This document shows positions 5,132 to 44,584 of a DNA stretch of 46,566 bases, piece by piece. A program made the translations under genes and the position numbers. The stretch is from IMG/VR virus record IMGVR_UViG_3300042923_000470, positions 1 through 46,566 of that record; one strand, 5' to 3'. The notes beneath the pieces were generated by a model, which saw nothing but the letters and a program-made list of their open reading frames with translations, searched no databases and had not been told where the DNA came from. Source of the stretch: a virus. Numbering within the stretch: the first letter of the stretch is position 1; every line of letters begins with the position of its first letter.

Positions 5132-5620
5132 ATGTACGAAGTAAAGTTTGTATTACAAAAACCAACAATGAGAACCAAACGTAGACTCTTAGAAGTTAAG
5201 TTCTATATGGTTTATAAGACATTATTAGGAATAGGCGACATATTTAAGCTAACTGCGTTTTTAGAAGCATTGGCTATTTTTTATGAGGTAGATAAGACAA
5301 AATTGACAATTACCGCTAATATGCTTAGGAAAATGGGAGCTAAACCTACTAAATTTGAAACTGTTATAGCTTGTAGGTTACTCGGAATGTCCTATGTAAA
5401 TATTAAAAAAGCTGTAGGAGTAGATATGAGGACAATAACAACTTATATTAAGAGGTATATAGAAGAAGATGAGCCAGAACTTAGACCTGTATTACAGCCT
5501 GTACTACATGAGTTTATAACAGGCTTCTTTGTAGCATTAGAAAAAGGATTTTTAGAACCTTTTAGAAAAGCTGAGTTGTTTAACGATCTAAAGATTGATT
5601 TAGAGGAGGATGAAGAATAA
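5132..5620 (+). CDS. Helix-turn-helix DNA-binding protein, putative
   Basis: AAAGGAGACTTAGA precedes the ATG. Of 162 residues, about 75-115 (FETVIACRLLGMSYVNIKKA followed by VGVDMRTITTYIKRY) have the spacing of a resolvase/transposase-type helix-turn-helix. The C-terminus is helical and acidic (DLEEDEE). Its position at the head of the helicase/replication block suggests a regulator or replication accessory protein; no specific family was recognised. Confidence 0.6.
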   Translation: MYEVKFVLQKPTMRTKRRLLEVKFYMVYKTLLGIGDIFKLTAFLEALAIFYEVDKTKLTITANMLRKMGAKPTKFETVIACRLLGMSYVNIKKAVGVDMRTITTYIKRYIEEDEPELRPVLQPVLHEFITGFFVALEKGFLEPFRKAELFNDLKIDLEEDEE

Positions 5621-6128: not shown

Positions 6129-7710
6129 CATAGAACAATTCTTTATATACTTTAAAGCAAAAGACACTATAGCAAAGGAGTTGAATGCCACCTATGTAAA
6201 AAGTAAACGTTGTTATCGTATTCCATTGAATCTATATTCTCTTAGAGAATTGTACAAGGTATGTGAAGGAGATAACAAAACTCTTATAGCAGATTTGGGA
6301 CTACAATTCAAAAAGAAATATGATGAAATGTTAATTATAAAGAGTTTAGATTGCGGTGGTTTTGATGCAAGGCTTAGACCTTATCAGAATCAAGATGTGA
6401 ACTACTTATCAAAACTACCACACAAAGCAATCTTTAACGAACAAAGAACTGGAAAGACTCCAACAACACTTATTACATTAAAGGAGAGTGGTGCTAAAAG
6501 AATATTAATTGTTTGTCCTTCAAGTCTTAAAGGTAATTGGAGTAGTGAGTTTGGCTTTTGGCTAGACCGACCATCCACTATTATCGAAGGGCCAGCTAAG
6601 AAAAGAGTTAAATTACTTGAAACGTTTAACGAGTACGACAACACAGTAGGAATTATCTCCTACGAAACTCTTAGAAATGATTTTAGTAAAGTCACATCTA
6701 AATTTGATGCGATGATTGTGGATGAAGCACACAGGCTAAGAAATTACAAGACACAACAGTCTAAAGCCATACTAAAGATGGGTCAACAAGCCACTACAAG
6801 GTATGCTCTAACAGGCACACCATCAGTAAATCACGCAGTAGATGTGTATGGTATACTCAAGTTCCTCTACCCTGCTCAGTACCCTTCATATTGGCAATTT
6901 GCAGAAAGGTATTTCGACATGGAGGCATCCTTTTATTCAGAGATGCCAGACATAGGAACGCTAAAATCAAATAGAATAAAGGAGTGGTTGGGAGAATTAA
7001 ATTTGATATCTATACAAAGGAAAAGGAAGGATGTTATGACTTGGTTACCTGACATACAAGAACAAGTAATTGAATTAGATGCTGAACCACAACAGAGAAA
7101 AGAATATGAACAGATGTTAGCTACTTATGCAGTTGGAGAAGTTGATGCACAAAACGACTTAGTAAGACTTATAAGACTTAGGCAAATAGCCTTAGCACCT
7201 GAGTTATTAGGGCTTAAAGGTGCATCACCTAAGATAAAGTTTATACTAGAGTATATCGAAGATAACCCAGACACACCAATAATCATATTCTCAGCTTTCA
7301 CTAGCTTCTTAAACCTATTAGCAAAGAAGTTAAGTTGTGATTATGGTTTAGTAACAGGAGAGACAAGATTTCCTACTCATACAGTAGATAGTTTCCAAAA
7401 TGGAAGGTTTAATATACTACTATCTAATATAAAAGTAGGTGGTGTAGGACATACGATGGATAGAGGAGAAGTTACAATATTTACAGACAGGTCATTCTCA
7501 CCAATGGAGAACGACCAAGCACAAGATAGATTTGTTCCGACAACTGAGGGCAAGGCGAAAGATTCTAAGTTGATTATTGACTTAGTTCTAAAAGATTCAG
7601 TAGATGCAAGAGTATTCCAGATATTAAAAGATAAAAAAGATATTACCTCATTCGTAAATGACTACGGATTGAAAATATTATTAGGGGAGAGATTAGATGA
7701 ATCCATTTGA
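6115..7710 (+). CDS. SNF2-family DNA helicase/translocase
   Basis: This is a 531-residue superfamily 2 ATPase. Motif I is NEQRTGKTPTT (about residue 108), motif II is DEAHRLRN (about 203), motif III is ALTGTPSVNH, and the C-terminal RecA-like lobe carries NILLSNIKVGGVGHTMDRG and the QAQDRFVPTTEGK region equivalent to motif VI (QxxxR). Phage SNF2 enzymes act as DNA translocases or remodelers in replication and recombination. It overlaps the following ATPase gene by 14 bases. The N-terminal 80 residues precede the helicase lobes and have no clear domain. Confidence 0.88.
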   Translation: MVIVSIEQFFIYFKAKDTIAKELNATYVKSKRCYRIPLNLYSLRELYKVCEGDNKTLIADLGLQFKKKYDEMLIIKSLDCGGFDARLRPYQNQDVNYLSKLPHKAIFNEQRTGKTPTTLITLKESGAKRILIVCPSSLKGNWSSEFGFWLDRPSTIIEGPAKKRVKLLETFNEYDNTVGIISYETLRNDFSKVTSKFDAMIVDEAHRLRNYKTQQSKAILKMGQQATTRYALTGTPSVNHAVDVYGILKFLYPAQYPSYWQFAERYFDMEASFYSEMPDIGTLKSNRIKEWLGELNLISIQRKRKDVMTWLPDIQEQVIELDAEPQQRKEYEQMLATYAVGEVDAQNDLVRLIRLRQIALAPELLGLKGASPKIKFILEYIEDNPDTPIIIFSAFTSFLNLLAKKLSCDYGLVTGETRFPTHTVDSFQNGRFNILLSNIKVGGVGHTMDRGEVTIFTDRSFSPMENDQAQDRFVPTTEGKAKDSKLIIDLVLKDSVDARVFQILKDKKDITSFVNDYGLKILLGERLDESI

Positions 7711-14505: not shown

Positions 14506-15102
14506 ATGAATTATAGTCAATTAAATAAAGAATACATGGCGAAATATAAGGCAGGTGATGAGTCCTACCTTTGGAAGTTAGTTGAATTGAATGAGAAGCT
14601 ATGTTATAGATTTGCACATAAATATAGTTGGATAGATGTAGAATTTGAGGACTTAGTAGCCATGATTAGACTTTATTTAATAAGGGCTGTACGAAGATTC
14701 GATATTAGCAAAGGTTTTGCTTTTATGACTTTTGCATATTCTGTAATTAACAATCAACTAAGACATTATAATAGAGATGCTAAAAGACGAGGTATAAACA
14801 CCTTATCCATAACAACTGAGATAAGTGAAAACGATACTTTAGAAGATGTGCTTGAAGCTGACGTACTAAATCCTTGTGACACTTATGTGGTAAGAGAAAA
14901 TGCTTTACGAATTAGAAAGGCTTTAAACTCTTTTGAAGAAGTGGATAGAGATATACTTATAGAGCTTGTAGTCAACAAAAAACCTCAGAGAGAGGTAGCT
15001 GAAAAACACGGCATTAGTCAAGTTCAAGTAAGTAGAAAACAAAGAATACTTTTAGCTAAATTAAAAATAAAATTTGAGAAAACAAAGGGAGATGTTGCGT
15101 AA
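14506..15102 (+). CDS. Phage RNA polymerase sigma factor (sigma-70 family)
   Basis: The 198-residue protein has sigma region 2 at about 30-100 ([20 protein letters not shown], then [18 protein letters not shown]) and region 4 with a helix-turn-helix at about 150-190 ([20 protein letters not shown]). There is no region 1.1 and no clear region 3, as in compact phage or ECF-like sigma factors. It is encoded in the middle arm, so a switch to late transcription is the likely role. The recognised promoter cannot be read from the sequence. Confidence 0.88.
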
Positions 15103-29484: not shown

Positions 29485-30381
29485 TTATTTTTTCTTTTTT
29501 GATAAATTAATGACAGGGAATTTTTCATTAATAACAAATTTCTTAGTAGTAGCTTTTTTAGCAGGTGTTGGATTAACTGCTCTTCTAGCCTCTGATGTTT
29601 TTGAAAGATTGTTTTCATAAGCTGTTTGCATAGCGTTTATCTCTGCATTACTGAATCCAAGACCGCCTAATTCACTACGATATTGGTAATACAATCCATC
29701 TTTTTGGCTATTGTTACTAAAGCCACTGTAAGTCTGTCTAAACCAATCTGCATCTGCTTGTTGTGCGGCTGTCAATTTCTTAGCTGAACTCCCCGAACTT
29801 TTTCTACCAGAACCACCACTACCACCAGAGCCGCCACTTATTGAAGCCATCATCTTCTCATATTCAAATTGCTCTCTAGCAAGTTTGTTCGCCCAATCTT
29901 GTTGTGCTACACTTAATCTCTTATTAAAATCTGAATCTATAAGCCCCTGTGCCTTAGTTAAATTATCTGAATATAACTGGTCTGCATAAGTGTTAGATGC
30001 AGTTCTATACTCATTGCCTTGTGAATCTAATCCTGATTTTTGCTGAGATAAAGTATTATATATATTAGCTAAGTCTGAGTTTCTGCCTAGATTTAGTGAC
30101 TGTTCTCCTAAACCTTGCATACCTCCTGTGATTCCCTTTCCTGCGGTATTGTACTGTGATTGCCTAAACTGGTCGAAATAATCTAAGTCTTTTTTCCTAG
30201 ATTCACTATAAGCATTTTGTTCATACGTTTTTCCTTGTTGAGCTAACGTAGCTAGTTGAGTGTCTAATTGTTTTTGTGCCACTTGTTGTGCATACTCTTT
30301 TGTAGCGTTTATGCCATACTGCTTATTTATATCGTCAAGTGTTAGTGCATTAACTCCTAAACTATTTGTGTAATCTGCCAT
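29485..30381 (-). CDS. Putative internal virion/ejection protein, Gly/Ser-linker containing
   Basis: A 298-residue, Gln- and Asn-rich helical protein with a flexible linker near residue 185-200 (SGGSGGSGGSGRKSSGSS). The N-terminal half (YAQQVAQKQLDTQLATLAQQ) is predicted coiled coil. The position just upstream of the large internal virion protein suggests a partner in the ejectosome. No firm family assignment. Confidence 0.6.
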   Translation of the reverse strand: MADYTNSLGVNALTLDDINKQYGINATKEYAQQVAQKQLDTQLATLAQQGKTYEQNAYSESRKKDLDYFDQFRQSQYNTAGKGITGGMQGLGEQSLNLGRNSDLANIYNTLSQQKSGLDSQGNEYRTASNTYADQLYSDNLTKAQGLIDSDFNKRLSVAQQDWANKLAREQFEYEKMMASISGGSGGSGGSGRKSSGSSAKKLTAAQQADADWFRQTYSGFSNNSQKDGLYYQYRSELGGLGFSNAEINAMQTAYENNLSKTSEARRAVNPTPAKKATTKKFVINEKFPVINLSKKKK

Positions 30382-39687: not shown

Positions 39688-40486
39688 CAATTATATTCTA
39701 TTAGGGTCGTTAATCCTAACACGTTCTCTTATGAACTGCTCATAGTCACCTATGAGATTAGACTATATCATACGATTAAAAAATCGTGACACCGCTTCCA
39801 CCCACTTGGGTGTACGTCTTTCGACTAGTCGTTGCACCTTCGCCAATAATAACCTCCTGCTGTTTTTCTAATACCTCTTGTTACAGCAGAAATTCCTGTC
39901 CAACCAATACCTGTCTGCTTTTCAGCTTCTTTTAAAGAAGGAAAAACATTAATAACTAAACCATCTTCGAGTTGTTCTACTCGTTGTCTATTAGGACATT
40001 CACATTGTAGTCCCATTGTTTTAGCGTGTCGAATATTCTCCGAAGCTGTAACCCACTCTAAATTAGAAACATTGTTGTTTTTCTTGTTTCCATCTTTATG
40101 GTTTACTTGTGGTTTGTTATCTGGATTTGGAATAAACGTAGTGGCTACAAGTCTATGTACTTTCATTGTTTTTACAATAGACTTATTTCTAAACTTCACA
40201 ACATTATACCCATCGCTATCGGTACTGTGTGAAAGAATTGTTCCCTCTCGTCTTGTTCCATACCTAGGTATTGATTTAATCACAGCGTCTTTGCTAACTT
40301 CATATAGCTCTTCCCAATGCTTTACTGGCGTAAACATAAGCATCATCTCCTTACTTATATTATATCCATGTTTTGGGTTATGTAGTCACAAAAACATTTA
40401 TTATTTTCGCTTGGCTCAGGATTGTCTTAACTTAGTAGTTAAGGTTTCCCCTGAATTCAATGTCTTTAAGGAGGACAGGTTTGTTT
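39688..40486 (-). mobile_element. Group I intron in the terminase gene
   Basis: On the minus strand the 5' exon end GGAGGAT pairs perfectly with the internal guide GTCCTCC a few bases inside the intron, ending in the required U-G wobble (P1). The conserved P4-type stretch AATCCTGAGCCAAG, the R segment GTGCAACGACTAG and the S segment ATGATATAGTCTAA (P7 GACTA/TAGTC) follow. The last intron base is G. Removing these 799 bases restores one open terminase frame. The HNH gene fills a peripheral loop, and its stop codon lies in the P7 strand. Confidence 0.92.
39825..40337 (-). CDS. HNH homing endonuclease encoded in the group I intron
   Basis: A 170-residue protein with NUMOD4 at the N-terminus (KHWEELYEVSKDAVIKSI), HNH_3 (KVHRLVATTFIPNP, VNHKDGNKKNNNVSNLEWVT, catalytic His/Asn) and an IENR1-like C-terminal repeat (AEKQTGIGWTGISAVTRG). 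ATG 40337 is the start with nine bases after AAGGAG; an earlier ATG abuts that site. It should cut the intron-free terminase gene of related phages and so spread the intron. Confidence 0.88.
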   Translation of the reverse strand: MFTPVKHWEELYEVSKDAVIKSIPRYGTRREGTILSHSTDSDGYNVVKFRNKSIVKTMKVHRLVATTFIPNPDNKPQVNHKDGNKKNNNVSNLEWVTASENIRHAKTMGLQCECPNRQRVEQLEDGLVINVFPSLKEAEKQTGIGWTGISAVTRGIRKTAGGYYWRRCND

Positions 40487-40966: not shown

Positions 40967-41038
40967 TGGTGGCAAAAGGGGAGTCGAACCCCATCTTTCG
41001 GAAGATGACCGATAGCAATACCATTATACTATTTCGCC
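40967..41038 (-). tRNA. tRNA-like gene with abnormal anticodon arm (isotype undetermined)
   Basis: A perfect 7-bp acceptor stem (GGCGAAA/TTTTGCC), discriminator A and encoded CCA, a tRNA-Gly-like D-arm and a TTCGACT T-loop are present. The anticodon arm does not fit: the canonical register gives stem TCGG/CCGA with loop TCATCTT (position 33 is C, not U), while the stronger stem CATCT/AGATG leaves a 6-nt loop. The T-stem has only four pairs. Probably degenerate or specialised. Confidence 0.6.
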
Positions 41039-41213
41039 TTAATTAGTTTTCCCTGTTTATAACCCTTACTCCACAGGAGCTACCCCGAATACCTAATGGC
41101 ATCTAGTAACTGTATATTGGTGATCATCGACACATCATTAATCCAATATACGTTTTGTTTTTATAGGGAGCTACCCTAAAGGAAATTTATATCTTATTAC
41201 TTAAATTTCAATT
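41039..41213 (-). other. Inter-tRNA spacer with hairpin and duplicated motif
   Basis: The 175 bases between tRNA genes hold a 9-bp inverted repeat (GTATATTGG 41112-41120 / CCAATATAC 41143-41151) and two copies of GGAGCTACCC (41077-41086 and 41167-41176; on the minus strand GGGTAGCTCC, like a tRNA D-arm). No complete tRNA is seen. They may be remnants of deleted tRNAs or processing signals. Confidence 0.5.
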
Positions 41214-41298
41214 TGGCTGTCCTATCTGGGCTCGAACCAGAAACCTTCTCCTTAACAGTTTTCAAGACTGTCGCAATAATCCACTCTGCCAACCTTCC
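41214..41298 (-). tRNA. tRNA-Ser(TGA), apparently chimeric or degenerate
   Basis: The anticodon arm ACAGT-CTTGAAA-ACTGT (anticodon TGA), the serine-type D-arm (GCAGAGTGGATTATTGC), the T-arm TCTGG-TTCGAGC-CCAGA, discriminator G and CCA are clear. However, 5' strand GGAAGGT and 3' strand TAGGACA of the acceptor do not pair (one of seven positions). The variable arm is not a clean hairpin. It looks like the 5' part of one tRNA joined to the 3' part of another. Confidence 0.65.
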
Positions 41299-41301
41299 TT
41301 A

Positions 41302-41386
41302 TGGTACTTGAGGAGGGAGTCGAACCCTCAATCCTTTCGGCGTACGCTTCTAAGGCGTATGCATATTCCAGTTCTGCTACTCAAGT
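41302..41386 (-). tRNA. tRNA-Leu(TAG)
   Basis: Acceptor ACTTGAG/CTCAAGT pairs fully. Anticodon stem TACGC/GCGTA encloses loop CTTAGAA. A long variable arm, T-arm GAGGG/CCCTC and encoded CCA complete a normal class II tRNA. Confidence 0.93.
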
Positions 41387-41390
41387 ATAA

Positions 41391-41466
41391 TGGTCGAGAG
41401 AGTGAGACTCGAACTCACGTTTACATGCTTCCAAGGCACGTTTCTTTCCTATTAGAAGACCTCTCG
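41391..41466 (-). tRNA. tRNA-Pro(TGG)
   Basis: Acceptor CGAGAGG/TCTCTCG, starting with C1 as is usual for proline tRNAs. D-stem TTCT/AGAA, anticodon loop CTTGGAA in stem CGTGC/GCATG, T-arm GTGAG-TTCGAGT-CTCAC, discriminator A and encoded CCA. Confidence 0.93.
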
Positions 41467-41481
41467 ATTGTGGTTTTTTAT

Positions 41482-41559
41482 TGGGGTGACCGAGGAGATT
41501 TGAACTCCCATTCACTAGATTCACAGTCTAGCCGCTTAACCATTTTGCGTACAACCAAC
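41482..41559 (-). tRNA. tRNA-His(GTG)
   Basis: Anticodon stem CTAGA/TCTAG with loop CTGTGAA (anticodon GTG), T-loop TTCAAAT, discriminator C73 opposite an extra 5' G(-1), both histidine identity features, and encoded CCA. The acceptor stem is weak, with three G-U pairs and one mismatch. Confidence 0.85.
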
Positions 41560-41573
41560 ATGTCCCTACATCT

Positions 41574-41602
41574 ATTATACCACATAATGGAGGAAATGTC
41601 AA
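41574..41602 (-). promoter_or_regulatory. Consensus sigma-A promoter for the tRNA cluster
   Basis: On the minus strand TTGACA (41597-41602) and TATAAT (41574-41579) are 17 bases apart. Transcription would start about 15 bases before tRNA-His and run leftward to the terminator at 40917-40942. Confidence 0.88.
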
Positions 41603-41862
41603 GAGAAACTTTTAAAGTGGTAAGAGAGAGAGAAGAGAAGAGAGTTGCTAGTACTACAACCGGCGAAGTTGAAATGTAAATCTATACCAATTTAATTTCC
41701 CCACACCGGTCCGTATCCCCATATACCCATATGCGTATATACTTATATAAAATAAAATATGTATGTGTATTACTATACTAATACAGTGGTACACATAGTA
41801 TACAGTACCACATCACATAGACTACCCATACCACACTATGATTGTGAATAGTTTAACTAACT

Positions 41863-41878
41863 TGTTTCACGTGAAACT
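41863..41878. promoter_or_regulatory. parS-like ParB/Spo0J binding site
   Basis: TGTTTCACGTGAAACT matches 15 of 16 positions of the bacterial chromosomal parS consensus (TGTTNCACGTGAAACA) and includes the full 14-base palindrome GTTTCACGTGAAAC. No ParA or ParB gene is visible in the genome, so host ParB (Spo0J) would be the binder. A perfect 14-base match is far rarer than chance would give in 46 kb. Confidence 0.85.
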
Positions 41879-42197
41879 ATACCACACCTACCAACACAGA
41901 CCTGAGTTCGTTAGTTAATTAACAAACAATGTACCTACCAACACTGGACTATCCTTGTTAATTATATATCAATGATACATCTTAGTTACAAGTTTAAGCC
42001 ACTTTAATTAATTCTAGGTACTAATGCCTACCTAAGAATCTAAACGTCTTAAATAGCCCTTGTTTTGCGTCTATTATCCTCTAATCTCCTAAATATTGTA
42101 TATTTTCTCAATACCAACTAAACATATTGACTTACTAAGTTGTAACAAACTTGTAAATTCCATAATTTAGGTGTTCGATTTTGGAACACTTCCATAA

Positions 42198-42279
42198 TTC
42201 GACATATTTTTTCCATAAATTTCCTGTAAATATTTGACAATTTACAATATTTGTAAATAATTTGTCGAAATTTGACATA
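42198..42279 (+). promoter_or_regulatory. Candidate early promoter flanked by four Spo0A-box-like sites
   Basis: TTGACA (42234-42239), 16 bases, then AATAAT (42256-42261) form a plausible promoter. Sites resembling the Spo0A box TTTGTCRAA lie at 42261-42269 (TTTGTCGAA, exact, right after the -10), 42233-42241 (TTTGACAAT, reverse, overlapping the -35), 42271-42279 (TTTGACATA, reverse) and 42198-42206 (TTCGACATA, reverse). The last three match 8 of 9. The arrangement would suit repression. Because the region is A+T-rich, single boxes could be chance. Confidence 0.5.
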
Positions 42280-42593
42280 AAATTGTAAAAATAGCCCAAT
42301 TTACAAGGTTGAAAGTTAATCATGATTAAAAAAATCCTATATAAAAATACAAGAAATTCAAATATACTATAATGAAGTAAAATTTTTGTGAAGAAAAAAG
42401 TATGTAAACGCTTTTTTTTTTTTTGTTGTTTTCCCTATATATCCTGCTTGTTTTTTTATGTAGTGGATTTGTATATACATTTTGCACTTTTTTGAAAATT
42501 TTTTATTTCCTCCTTTCCCAATCCTACCACGTATGCCTATGACATTTTGCCAAGCATACTTGTCAACATATATTCTATATATACGTTTTTTCT

Positions 42594-42606
42594 AAAAACC
42601 GTCACA
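42594..42606 (-). repeat. Inverted copy of the TGTGACGGTTTT motif
   Basis: AAAAACCGTCACA here is the reverse complement of the motif found twice at 43894 and 43968. It is located 18 bases upstream of the -35 of the promoter at 42624, suggesting an operator or activator site. Confidence 0.6.
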
Positions 42607-42623
42607 TATTCCGCATATTTATC

Positions 42624-42653
42624 TTTACATTCGAATATACTATATGTTATACT
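42624..42653 (+). promoter_or_regulatory. Sigma-A-type promoter for the rightward early operon
   Basis: TTTACA (42624-42629), 18-base spacer, TATACT (42648-42653). It precedes the AGGAGG-led gene at 42685 by about 30 bases. Confidence 0.6.
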
Positions 42654-42684
42654 AAATTTAACAAAAACTTAGGAGGTTACAAAG

Positions 42685-42924
42685 ATGAAAAGAAAACTAC
42701 TAATCATTATTGTCATTATCGTACTATACCTTAACTACTCAGTGGACGACCCAAGGATTCAAATTAACAAGAGGTACACGATTACGCAGACTTCTGATAC
42801 CTATTTAATGGGACAAGATGATAAGGGCAATCATATTGCCTTAGAACGTAACAATAACGAACAAGTTGGGCAAGGCATTTACGCTACTATAATAATAGAT
42901 GAGGTGTACCTAGTTCATCAGTAG
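42685..42924 (+). CDS. Small exported or membrane-anchored protein, 79 aa
   Basis: TTAGGAGGTTACAAAG precedes the ATG. Residues 4-17 (KLLIIIVIIVLYL) are a hydrophobic signal or anchor; the remaining 60 residues are polar and beta-rich (YTITQTSDTYLMGQDDKGNH). First gene of the rightward arm, so probably expressed immediately after infection. A host-membrane or superinfection role is possible; no family recognised. Confidence 0.7.
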   Translation: MKRKLLIIIVIIVLYLNYSVDDPRIQINKRYTITQTSDTYLMGQDDKGNHIALERNNNEQVGQGIYATIIIDEVYLVHQ

Positions 42925-43740: not shown

Positions 43741-43748
43741 TAAATAGT

Positions 43749-43776
43749 AAGCCATTCTTAATTGAATGGCTTTTTT
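43749..43776 (+). terminator. Rho-independent terminator
   Basis: AAGCCATTC / GAATGGCTT (9-bp stem, 6-nt loop) runs into TTTTTT, right after the sigma-like gene. Confidence 0.92.
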
Positions 43777-43893
43777 CACGTCTAAAATAACCCACAAAAT
43801 CAATTCTAAGCCACCATATCGCCAATTCTAGCCACTTTAATTATTGTACCTAAGTATTAGTATTACTCACTATTTAAAAAAGCTTTATTTAAG

Positions 43894-44014
43894 TGTGACG
43901 GTTTTATCCATAAATCCCCCTAAGTATAATAAGGGAACAAAATGAAACAAAAACATTTTAAATTGAGTGTGACGGTTTTAGTTAAAAAGTCCCCTAATAG
44001 TAATAAGAGGATAA
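43894..44014 (+). repeat. Two tandem imperfect repeats with the TGTGACGGTTTTA motif
   Basis: TGTGACGGTTTTA occurs at 43894-43906 and 43968-43980, 74 bases apart. Each copy is followed by a similar CCCCTAA...TAATAAG-AGG block (CCCCCTAAGTATAATAAGGG in the first). A third copy lies inverted at 42594. They are candidate operators, phage-sigma promoters or replication iterons; none codes for protein. Confidence 0.75.
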
Positions 44015-44094
44015 ACAAACAAAGCGTAATTGTTAGCAAGTGTTTAATCCTTAATAAAATAAAAAGGAGCTGATTCATGTAGCTACTCAAACGC

Positions 44095-44185
44095 AATTTG
44101 TAGTAAATTGTAAAAACTTTTGAAATTACAATTTCTCATGACAAATTTTCCCAAATTGTAAAATTAAGAGAATTTACAATATTAA
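44095..44185. other. Cluster of TTGTAAA/TTTACAA elements
   Basis: Three exact 7-mers (44108-44114, 44156-44162, 44173-44179), embedded in AAATTGTAAAA or AATTTACAAT context, match the elements in the control region 42151-42306. Their placement on both sides of the first operon suggests binding by one protein. A+T-richness makes the exact count uncertain. Confidence 0.45.
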
Positions 44186-44220
44186 AAATTAAATATGGTA
44201 TGTGTTTTTAATTCCTAATT

Positions 44221-44560
44221 TTTTATGACCGAACGTCATATCTCCTGTGATACAGATATGATTACTAGCTCATAGCAGTTAGGCAACACTTTCCGACCAT
44301 CATACAGAGCGAGAACCGAACAGGCTAGAACACAGGTCTGCCTTAATAGGTCAAATGCTACCACCGTACTCTGCTTAAAATGCTAGGAGTCCGAGTGATT
44401 GAGCCTTTCAAGGGCGAGGGATACTGAACTGCAAAGGGACAGGGTATGCCGAGGATAGAGAGCTAATGGGGAGTTTCATAAACAAAGCAGATACATGGAG
44501 TATACTGCTTCTAGTACCGAGCAATTAGAGCGATATTAGAAGGGGTGGATTCCCTAATAA
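44221..44560 (+). ncRNA. Probable structured noncoding RNA or long leader
   Basis: This stretch of about 340 bases has no open frame of note and is visibly richer in G and C than its flanks. Strong helices can be drawn: TCATATCT/AGATATGA (44236-44261), AAGCAG-ATAC/GTAT-A-CTGCTT (44485-44510), CTAGTA/TATTAG (44511-44539), ACTC/GAGT, CAGGC/GTCTG and AGGG/CCCT. It lies between the upstream terminator and the PC4-like gene. It does not carry the group I intron core seen in terminase, and I recognise no Rfam family. Confidence 0.6.
44451..44469 (+). repeat. 19-bp repeat shared with 23-41
   Basis: This is the copy, inside the structured region, of the sequence found in the zinc-ribbon coding region at 23-41, in the same orientation. 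Confidence 0.75.
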
Positions 44561-44584
44561 AAATAAGAGGAGAAGTGATTTATT

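Follow-up and report, generated by a model that had tools for sequence, protein, structure and literature searches.

Does the window, by which we mean the whole 46,566-bp stretch of viral DNA analysed here, carry a switch that lets host sporulation decide between lysis and dormancy? The question is raised by a cluster of Spo0A-box-like (0A-like) sequences over a candidate early promoter, with a parS-like site nearby. Phages phi29 and Nf are known for a Spo0A-Spo0J system of spore entrapment (Meijer 2005 and Castilla-Llorente 2009, as cited in the available part of PMC9437464). The window resembles these phages in its 0A-like boxes over a candidate early promoter, in the parS close by and, by suggestion, in both a Spo0A shut-off and Spo0J capture. 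Unlike phi29, it is 46.6 kb long, encodes a family A DNA polymerase, a primase-helicase, a terminase large subunit and a portal, and adds a palindromic operator array to the boxes. Members of the phi29 lineage (Salasmaviridae) have a protein-primed type B polymerase and a genome of about 20 kb. By its polymerase and its size, the window falls outside that lineage.

Genome layout and relatives

The same ~30 bases were seen by eye at both ends of the window, which is therefore probably a complete, circularised phage contig. Its leftward genes encode terminase, portal, capsid and tail-end functions (Pfam/PHROG), and its rightward genes a helicase, a primase, a family A polymerase, a sigma factor and a ribonucleotide reductase. 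The early/late layout around the region between them is shared with relatives of the virus.

41560-42684, no strand: divergent intergenic region between tRNA/late genes (minus strand) and early genes (plus strand), from the ORF, tRNA and PHROG/Pfam layout
42685-42924, plus strand: first early ORF, 79 aa, without a Pfam or PHROG match

Several other features of the genome were recorded. tRNAs for Asp, Leu, Pro and His (ARAGORN) occupy 40967-41558, with a weak fifth tRNA at 41225-41291 (Rfam); tRNA was the sole family found in an Rfam scan of the window. The phage sigma factor gene lies at 14506-15102, and the top PDB sequence matches of its product are chain 8x6g_H and the sigma factor 1l0o. 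An HNH endonuclease gene at 39825-40346 shares 96 bp at 82% DNA identity with an Enterococcus phage endonuclease.

The window belongs to a podovirus family, in which its closest named relatives are the Paenibacillus larvae phages API480 and SV21 (terminase 47-49%, portal 45% and primase 41% identity). Across core replication and structural genes, the window is about 29-50% identical to these two phages and to the plasmid NZ_CP019718.1, with which it also shares the divergent early/late layout and the lack of an integrase match. A twin contig of 18 kb, which belongs to a different IMG/VR record, shows 100% identity to the window across the 1,121-bp control region. A primase profile search returned 117 relatives in IMG/VR, 80 of which were listed, together with 21 genome-assembly loci, of which seven are close. 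These seven come from bins assigned to Thermoclostridium, Clostridiales, Clostridium and Clostridia (four) and to Nealsonbacteria, Gastranaerophilales and Bacteroidia (three), and binning errors are possible. The final comparison set held 60 relatives, or 61 genomes counting the window. For 54 of the 61, junction counts were made in the DNA that precedes the terminase gene, over a distance of at most 3 kb. Two host searches by DNA match, over 398 genomes each, gave short or diverged matches only, in tRNA regions, HNH regions and conserved genes. No CRISPR-like array was present in the 10 loci listed by the first of these searches.

Boxes, palindromes and promoters at the junction

The sites that bear on control of the early genes are as follows.

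41574-41602, minus strand: perfect extended -10 sigma-A-type promoter TTGACA-N17-TATAAT, 12/12, ahead of the tRNA genes
42198-42206, minus strand: 0A-like box TATGTCGAA, 8/9
42224-42247, no strand: palindrome Op1, CTGTAAATATTTGACAATTTACAA, 11/12 arm positions, covering the -35
42233-42241, plus strand: 0A-like box TTTGACAAT, 8/9 under the degenerate consensus only, holding the -35 TTGACA
42234-42261, plus strand: candidate early promoter TTGACA-N16-AATAAT, 11/12, by sequence match
42241-42257, no strand: inner inverted repeat TTTACAATATTTGTAAA within the promoter spacer, from the sequence
42261-42269, plus strand: exact 0A box TTTGTCGAA
42271-42279, plus strand: 0A-like box TTTGACATA, head-to-tail with the exact box in a 10-bp register
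42283-42306, no strand: palindrome Op2, TTGTAAAAATAGCCCAATTTACAA, 12/12 arm positions
42624-42653, plus strand: alternative early promoter TTTACA-N18-TATACT, 10/12, with TG ahead of the -10, 31 bp to the first ORF
44108-44131, no strand: palindrome Op3, TTGTAAAAACTTTTGAAATTACAA
44156-44179, no strand: palindrome Op4, TTGTAAAATTAAGAGAATTTACAA, 48 bp from Op3

The boxes, the promoter and parS all lie where the original prediction had placed them. Its count of three 8-of-9 boxes beside the exact one holds only under the degenerate consensus TTTGNCRAA; when at most one mismatch from TTTGTCGAA is allowed, two of the four boxes are left. The whole window has 11 matches at that stringency, against 12.3 expected. 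The boxes at 42233 and 42271 are TTTGACA, that is, -35-like, and the former lies inside Op1.

The clustering of the boxes had been put forward as what sets them apart from chance, and here shuffling bore the prediction out. An equal cluster, defined as an exact box plus at least three further sites within 82 bp, never arose when the whole window (100 shuffles) or the intergenic DNA (2000 shuffles) was shuffled, and it arose once when the local 300 bp were shuffled 5000 times. When the exact box was not demanded, four sites were reached in 2 of 100 whole-window shuffles. Among 400 permuted consensuses of the same make-up, an equal cluster arose somewhere in the window for 5% and in the 41560-42684 gap for 1%. 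The cluster is not plain chance. The tandem TTTGTCGAA-A-TTTGACATA, counted as an exact plus a one-mismatch box, was absent from 100 genome shuffles and averaged 0.0006 per intergenic shuffle, and a 10-bp tandem pair was found for 1% of the 400 permuted consensuses in the window and for none in the intergenic region. We take its head-to-tail 10-bp register to be the arrangement in the Spo0A-DNA structure. By itself, though, the tandem pattern is no rarity, because 51 stretches of the viral collection have it, one of them being the twin contig.

The boxes do not extend to the family as a signature. In the non-coding DNA of 40 relatives TTTGTCGAA was not enriched (2 seen versus 0.95 expected); the 7-mer core was seen 9 times versus 8.5 expected, and the looser TTTGTCRAA 8 times versus 3.75 (sd 2.1). 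The junction non-coding DNA of 54 genomes held two exact 9-mers, including that of the window, and 14% of permuted 9-mers were found as often. Raw exact-box rates that ignore coding, a weaker control, look enriched (3 upstream versus 8 elsewhere). With no enrichment in the non-coding or junction DNA of relatives, a family-wide 0A signature was rejected. An association between parS and TTTGTCGAA was also set aside: among 120 viral-contig loci listed, two boxes were near and eight far (0.14 versus 0.09 per 10 kb), which is too few. As a separate observation, an exact TTTGTCGAA in SV21 (L007 44075) and TATGTCGAA in API480 (L006 21545) both stand upstream of a parM-like gene.

The best-supported regulatory feature of the junction is one that the original prediction missed, an array of TTGTAA-N12-TTACAA palindromes. 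Three exact copies and one with a single mismatch are present, all within two intergenic regions of the window: Op1 and Op2 bracket the promoter at 42234-42261, with the -35 inside Op1, and Op3 and Op4 lie in the next long gap. The exact pattern was absent from 100 genome shuffles, and 0.0015 copies are expected in the two gaps together. At up to one mismatch, four copies were observed versus 0.05 expected in the gaps, although four copies can be reached in a whole-genome shuffle. The spacings of the two pairs, 59 bp for Op1/Op2 and 48 bp for Op3/Op4, differ by 11. Most simply, the palindromes are predicted to be operators of a phage-specific regulator, and the 0A-like boxes are interleaved with this stronger, phage-specific signal.

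A candidate for the regulator comes from comparison with relatives.

5132-5620, plus strand: candidate regulator, a weak helix-turn-helix (HTH) protein, aligned with the syntenic pre-helicase proteins of relatives

A different palindrome, TGATAC-N7-GTATCA, occurs at least twice in 5 of 41 genomes (G018, G019, G020, G024 and G057). In the three that were checked (G018, G020 and G024), it is found near the early/late junction and directly ahead of a 143-aa pre-helicase protein, which aligns with the product of 5132-5620 at 19-21% identity, with nine invariant columns over eight sequences. The HTH scores of the window protein are weak, and no operator palindrome was found ahead of 5132 in the window, so the regulator is assigned to this gene by analogy. 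Repeated dyads in general were present in 16 of the 41 genomes versus two shuffled ones, the real number being nearer nine because about six second copies are probably contig-end duplications and the SV21 pair looks like chance; close relatives such as G012 and G051 had no convincing repeated palindrome. LexA boxes at the junction were dropped as a candidate: the raw count was 7 upstream versus 22 elsewhere, and with non-coding and motif controls they did not exceed the best control dyad.

The promoter between Op1 and Op2 is one of several candidates and lies about 417 nt from the first ORF. Competing candidates at 42547 and 42624 are nearer to that ORF, so that the early start may lie at one of them instead. 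A WalR-like direct repeat was noted at 42141, and a search of the window's non-coding DNA for other host-regulator motifs gave nothing beyond a Rex-like site with two mismatches at 41842. Further along, 43741-44584 is a long gap without a convincing ORF, the last part of which appears richer in G+C than the rest; as a possible structured RNA, 44220-44584 folds no better than its shuffles (z -0.94). The sequence GAGGATAGAGAGCTAATGG was seen by eye at both 44452-44470 and 22-40, perhaps a trace of recombination.

parS, a probable plasmid-like lifestyle and competing readings

The second half of the question concerns the partition site.

41863-41878, plus strand: parS-like site TGTTTCACGTGAAACT, 15/16, with the core GTTTCACGTGAAAC exact; about 1e-4 core matches are expected in the window

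As a sequence match the parS site is real, and it ends 320 bp before the first box, the distance originally given. It is a single copy in the phage genome. Exact parS found no match in API480, SV21, G002 or G003 and is confined, among the relatives compared, to the window virus and the twin contig. As a family trait, parS was rejected: a one-mismatch site is present in 3 of 56 further relatives, in all three inside an ORF. Of the four Clostridia bins with relatives, three contain the same 14-mer without a mismatch and the fourth contains it with one.

The relatives suggest what such a site may be for. One member of the family is a plasmid, unnamed1 of P. larvae strain Eric_V (NZ_CP019718.1), which is circular, 46,114 bp long and encodes ParM/StbA; it is 92-99.7% identical to API480 across the 26 kb compared, and its portal is 45% identical to that of the window. 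No integrase was found in API480, yet the phage lysogenises its host (available part of PMC6937236), and its gene annotated as 'DNA-binding protein' (L006 20425-21408) matches actin-like ParM families. Among 42 records, ParB_N and phage integrase (PF00589) were each found in none, and ALP_N in three, all of them P. larvae members. ParM in P. larvae podoviruses came up in no title or abstract opening found, in a search with most subscription journals outside its scope. Unlike the window, API480, SV21 and the plasmid carry ParM, and the two phages also have MazEF-type genes, while parS and TTGTAA-N12-TTACAA are absent from API480 and SV21, as is any 0A box at their junctions. The window has no match to integrase, ParB_N or ALP_N/ParM, that is, to a partition protein of its own of those kinds, yet has a host-type centromere; parS is therefore read as a borrowed partition site. 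It may be a borrowed centromere, which would serve spore entrapment too if the host sporulates. Binding of the site by host ParB is quite probable. A phage with ParB but no ParA has been described (available part of PMC10286716).

The explanation that we lean towards combines these elements. The site at 42234-42261 is probably the early-lytic promoter in the divergent control region of a phage that would persist as a circular, plasmid-like prophage, a state that we infer for the window virus. A phage-specific regulator, probably the HTH protein of 5132-5620, would bind the TTGTAA-N12-TTACAA palindromes, with Op1 over the -35, Op2 just downstream of the start and the second pair, Op3 and Op4, about 1.9 kb deeper in the early region. 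parS would recruit host ParB (Spo0J), which would allow the extrachromosomal genome to be partitioned along with the chromosome. Finally, in sporulating hosts, Spo0A~P of the host may contribute further repression through the tandem 0A-like site, which lies between the -10 and Op2. Host-ParB partition is likely and Spo0A input plausible within this explanation; taken separately, an early promoter under a phage-specific regulator is predicted with reasonable confidence, and Spo0A acting at the tandem site only tentatively. Some of the bins that hold relatives are not Bacillota, and parS is single-copy and absent from relatives; both points count against the explanation as a whole.

The boxes could also be taken at face value, with Spo0A~P shutting the early promoter at sporulation and Spo0J-parS pulling the silent genome into the forespore, as in the phi29 mechanism (described in the available part of PMC9437464). 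The tandem pair at the -10/start, the inverted core upstream and parS at its short distance all fit such a switch. The TGTCGAA core is also the one recognised by Spo0A of C. difficile (available part of PMC3485338), and the signal would therefore be readable in both Bacilli and Clostridia. What stands of the original proposal is that the cluster and parS exceed chance, that the region is the divergent control region of the early and late genes and that the closest named relatives infect a spore-former. What counts against it is that TTTGTCGAA is not enriched in relatives, that two of the four boxes are TTTGACA, that the same tandem pattern recurs in those 51 viral stretches, that parS is found only in the virus and its twin and that the stronger palindrome array was overlooked. 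We consider a phi29-like switch doubtful, and the switch as originally proposed, in a sporulating host, doubtful at best. Alternatively, the 0A-like boxes may be a by-product of the -35 core TTTGACA and the A+T-rich TTGTAAA/TTTACAA array, with the palindromes alone of consequence. The two TTTGACA boxes, one of them inside Op1, the permuted consensuses that give an equal cluster in 5% of cases across the window and the chance level of strict-consensus matches genome-wide argue for this reading. The exact 9-mer with its 10-bp tandem partner is rarer than this reading would suggest, both per intergenic shuffle (0.0006) and among permuted motifs in the gap (0 of 400). We hold the by-product reading to be a serious possibility, if short of an even one.

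Other readings turn on what the palindromes and parS do. The palindromes could equally be replication iterons, and the array a replication origin at which a phage initiator binds, with parS beside it. The A+T-rich intergenic DNA, the repeated dyads, the 11-bp difference between the 59- and 48-bp spacings and the ORF-poor stretch at 43741-44584 would suit an origin, but Op1 and Op2 sit on promoter elements, and the palindromes of relatives precede single genes such as that of the pre-helicase protein, which looks like regulation; an origin is quite unlikely. For parS, the alternative is that it is the centromere of a plasmid prophage and no route into the spore, with sporulation irrelevant. Partition of a plasmid prophage explains the site at least as well as spore entrapment does: one member of the family exists as a plasmid that encodes ParM, and the window, which does have parS, gave no ALP_N/ParM or ParB_N match. 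Both uses of parS, however, need host ParB only and can coexist, and the prophage state of the window virus is itself part of the reading, which we judge to be nearly an even call.

Candidate host-regulator sites at the junctions of relatives

One relative, G013, has CIRCE-like sites at 29508-29614, three in number and with 2, 1 and 0 mismatches of 18; its terminase gene follows about 1.1-1.2 kb downstream. An exact CIRCE scan picked up two further family contigs with a perfect copy: L418, whose terminase is 92% identical to that of G013, at 46-72, about 1.1 kb upstream of the terminase gene, and L419 (terminase 61% identical to that of G013) at 6877-6903, about 0.2 kb upstream. We assume here the usual name and consensus of CIRCE as the operator of HrcA. 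At up to three mismatches, the true arms gave four sites in the 61 genomes, three in G013 and one three-mismatch site in G038, and scrambled arms gave a mean of 0.92 and a maximum of 5 in 100 trials. Since scrambled arms reach up to five, it is the exact copies, together with the recurrence in L418 and L419, that give the CIRCE finding its weight. From these sequences, the junction appears to hold a host stress operator in one lineage of the family at least. HrcA operators in phages were mentioned in no title or abstract opening found, with most subscription journals outside the scope of the search.

These sites raise the further idea that the junction serves as a platform on which global regulators of the host dock and can be exchanged, with CIRCE in G013, L418 and L419 and the Spo0A tandem and parS here. 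We consider this unlikely, if somewhat less so than an origin. If it is true, a plasmid prophage would read the stress or sporulation state of its host directly, and the window virus would ride into spores on host ParB and not on a ParM of its own. There is a parallel in CtrA-controlled alphaproteobacterial phages, for which 'lytic deferment' has been described, and which like the window have sites for a host developmental regulator in a ~1 kb gap between divergent phage gene blocks (available part of PMC9437464). The regulator there is CtrA and not Spo0A, and both the phages and the hosts are others.

If the sporulation link is true, phage dormancy tied to sporulation would not be peculiar to phi29-like phages and would have arisen again in an unrelated, plasmid-living family. 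A single family would then show a phage switch that gains and loses host regulators, those of stress as well as those of development. Borrowing of the chromosomal ParB-parS system would likewise explain how a phage with neither integrase nor ParM is inherited. As a separate observation, a phage contig without a match to the family proteins searched (L385) has four CIRCE-like operators in tandem at 5375-5548, with a spacing of 49 bp.
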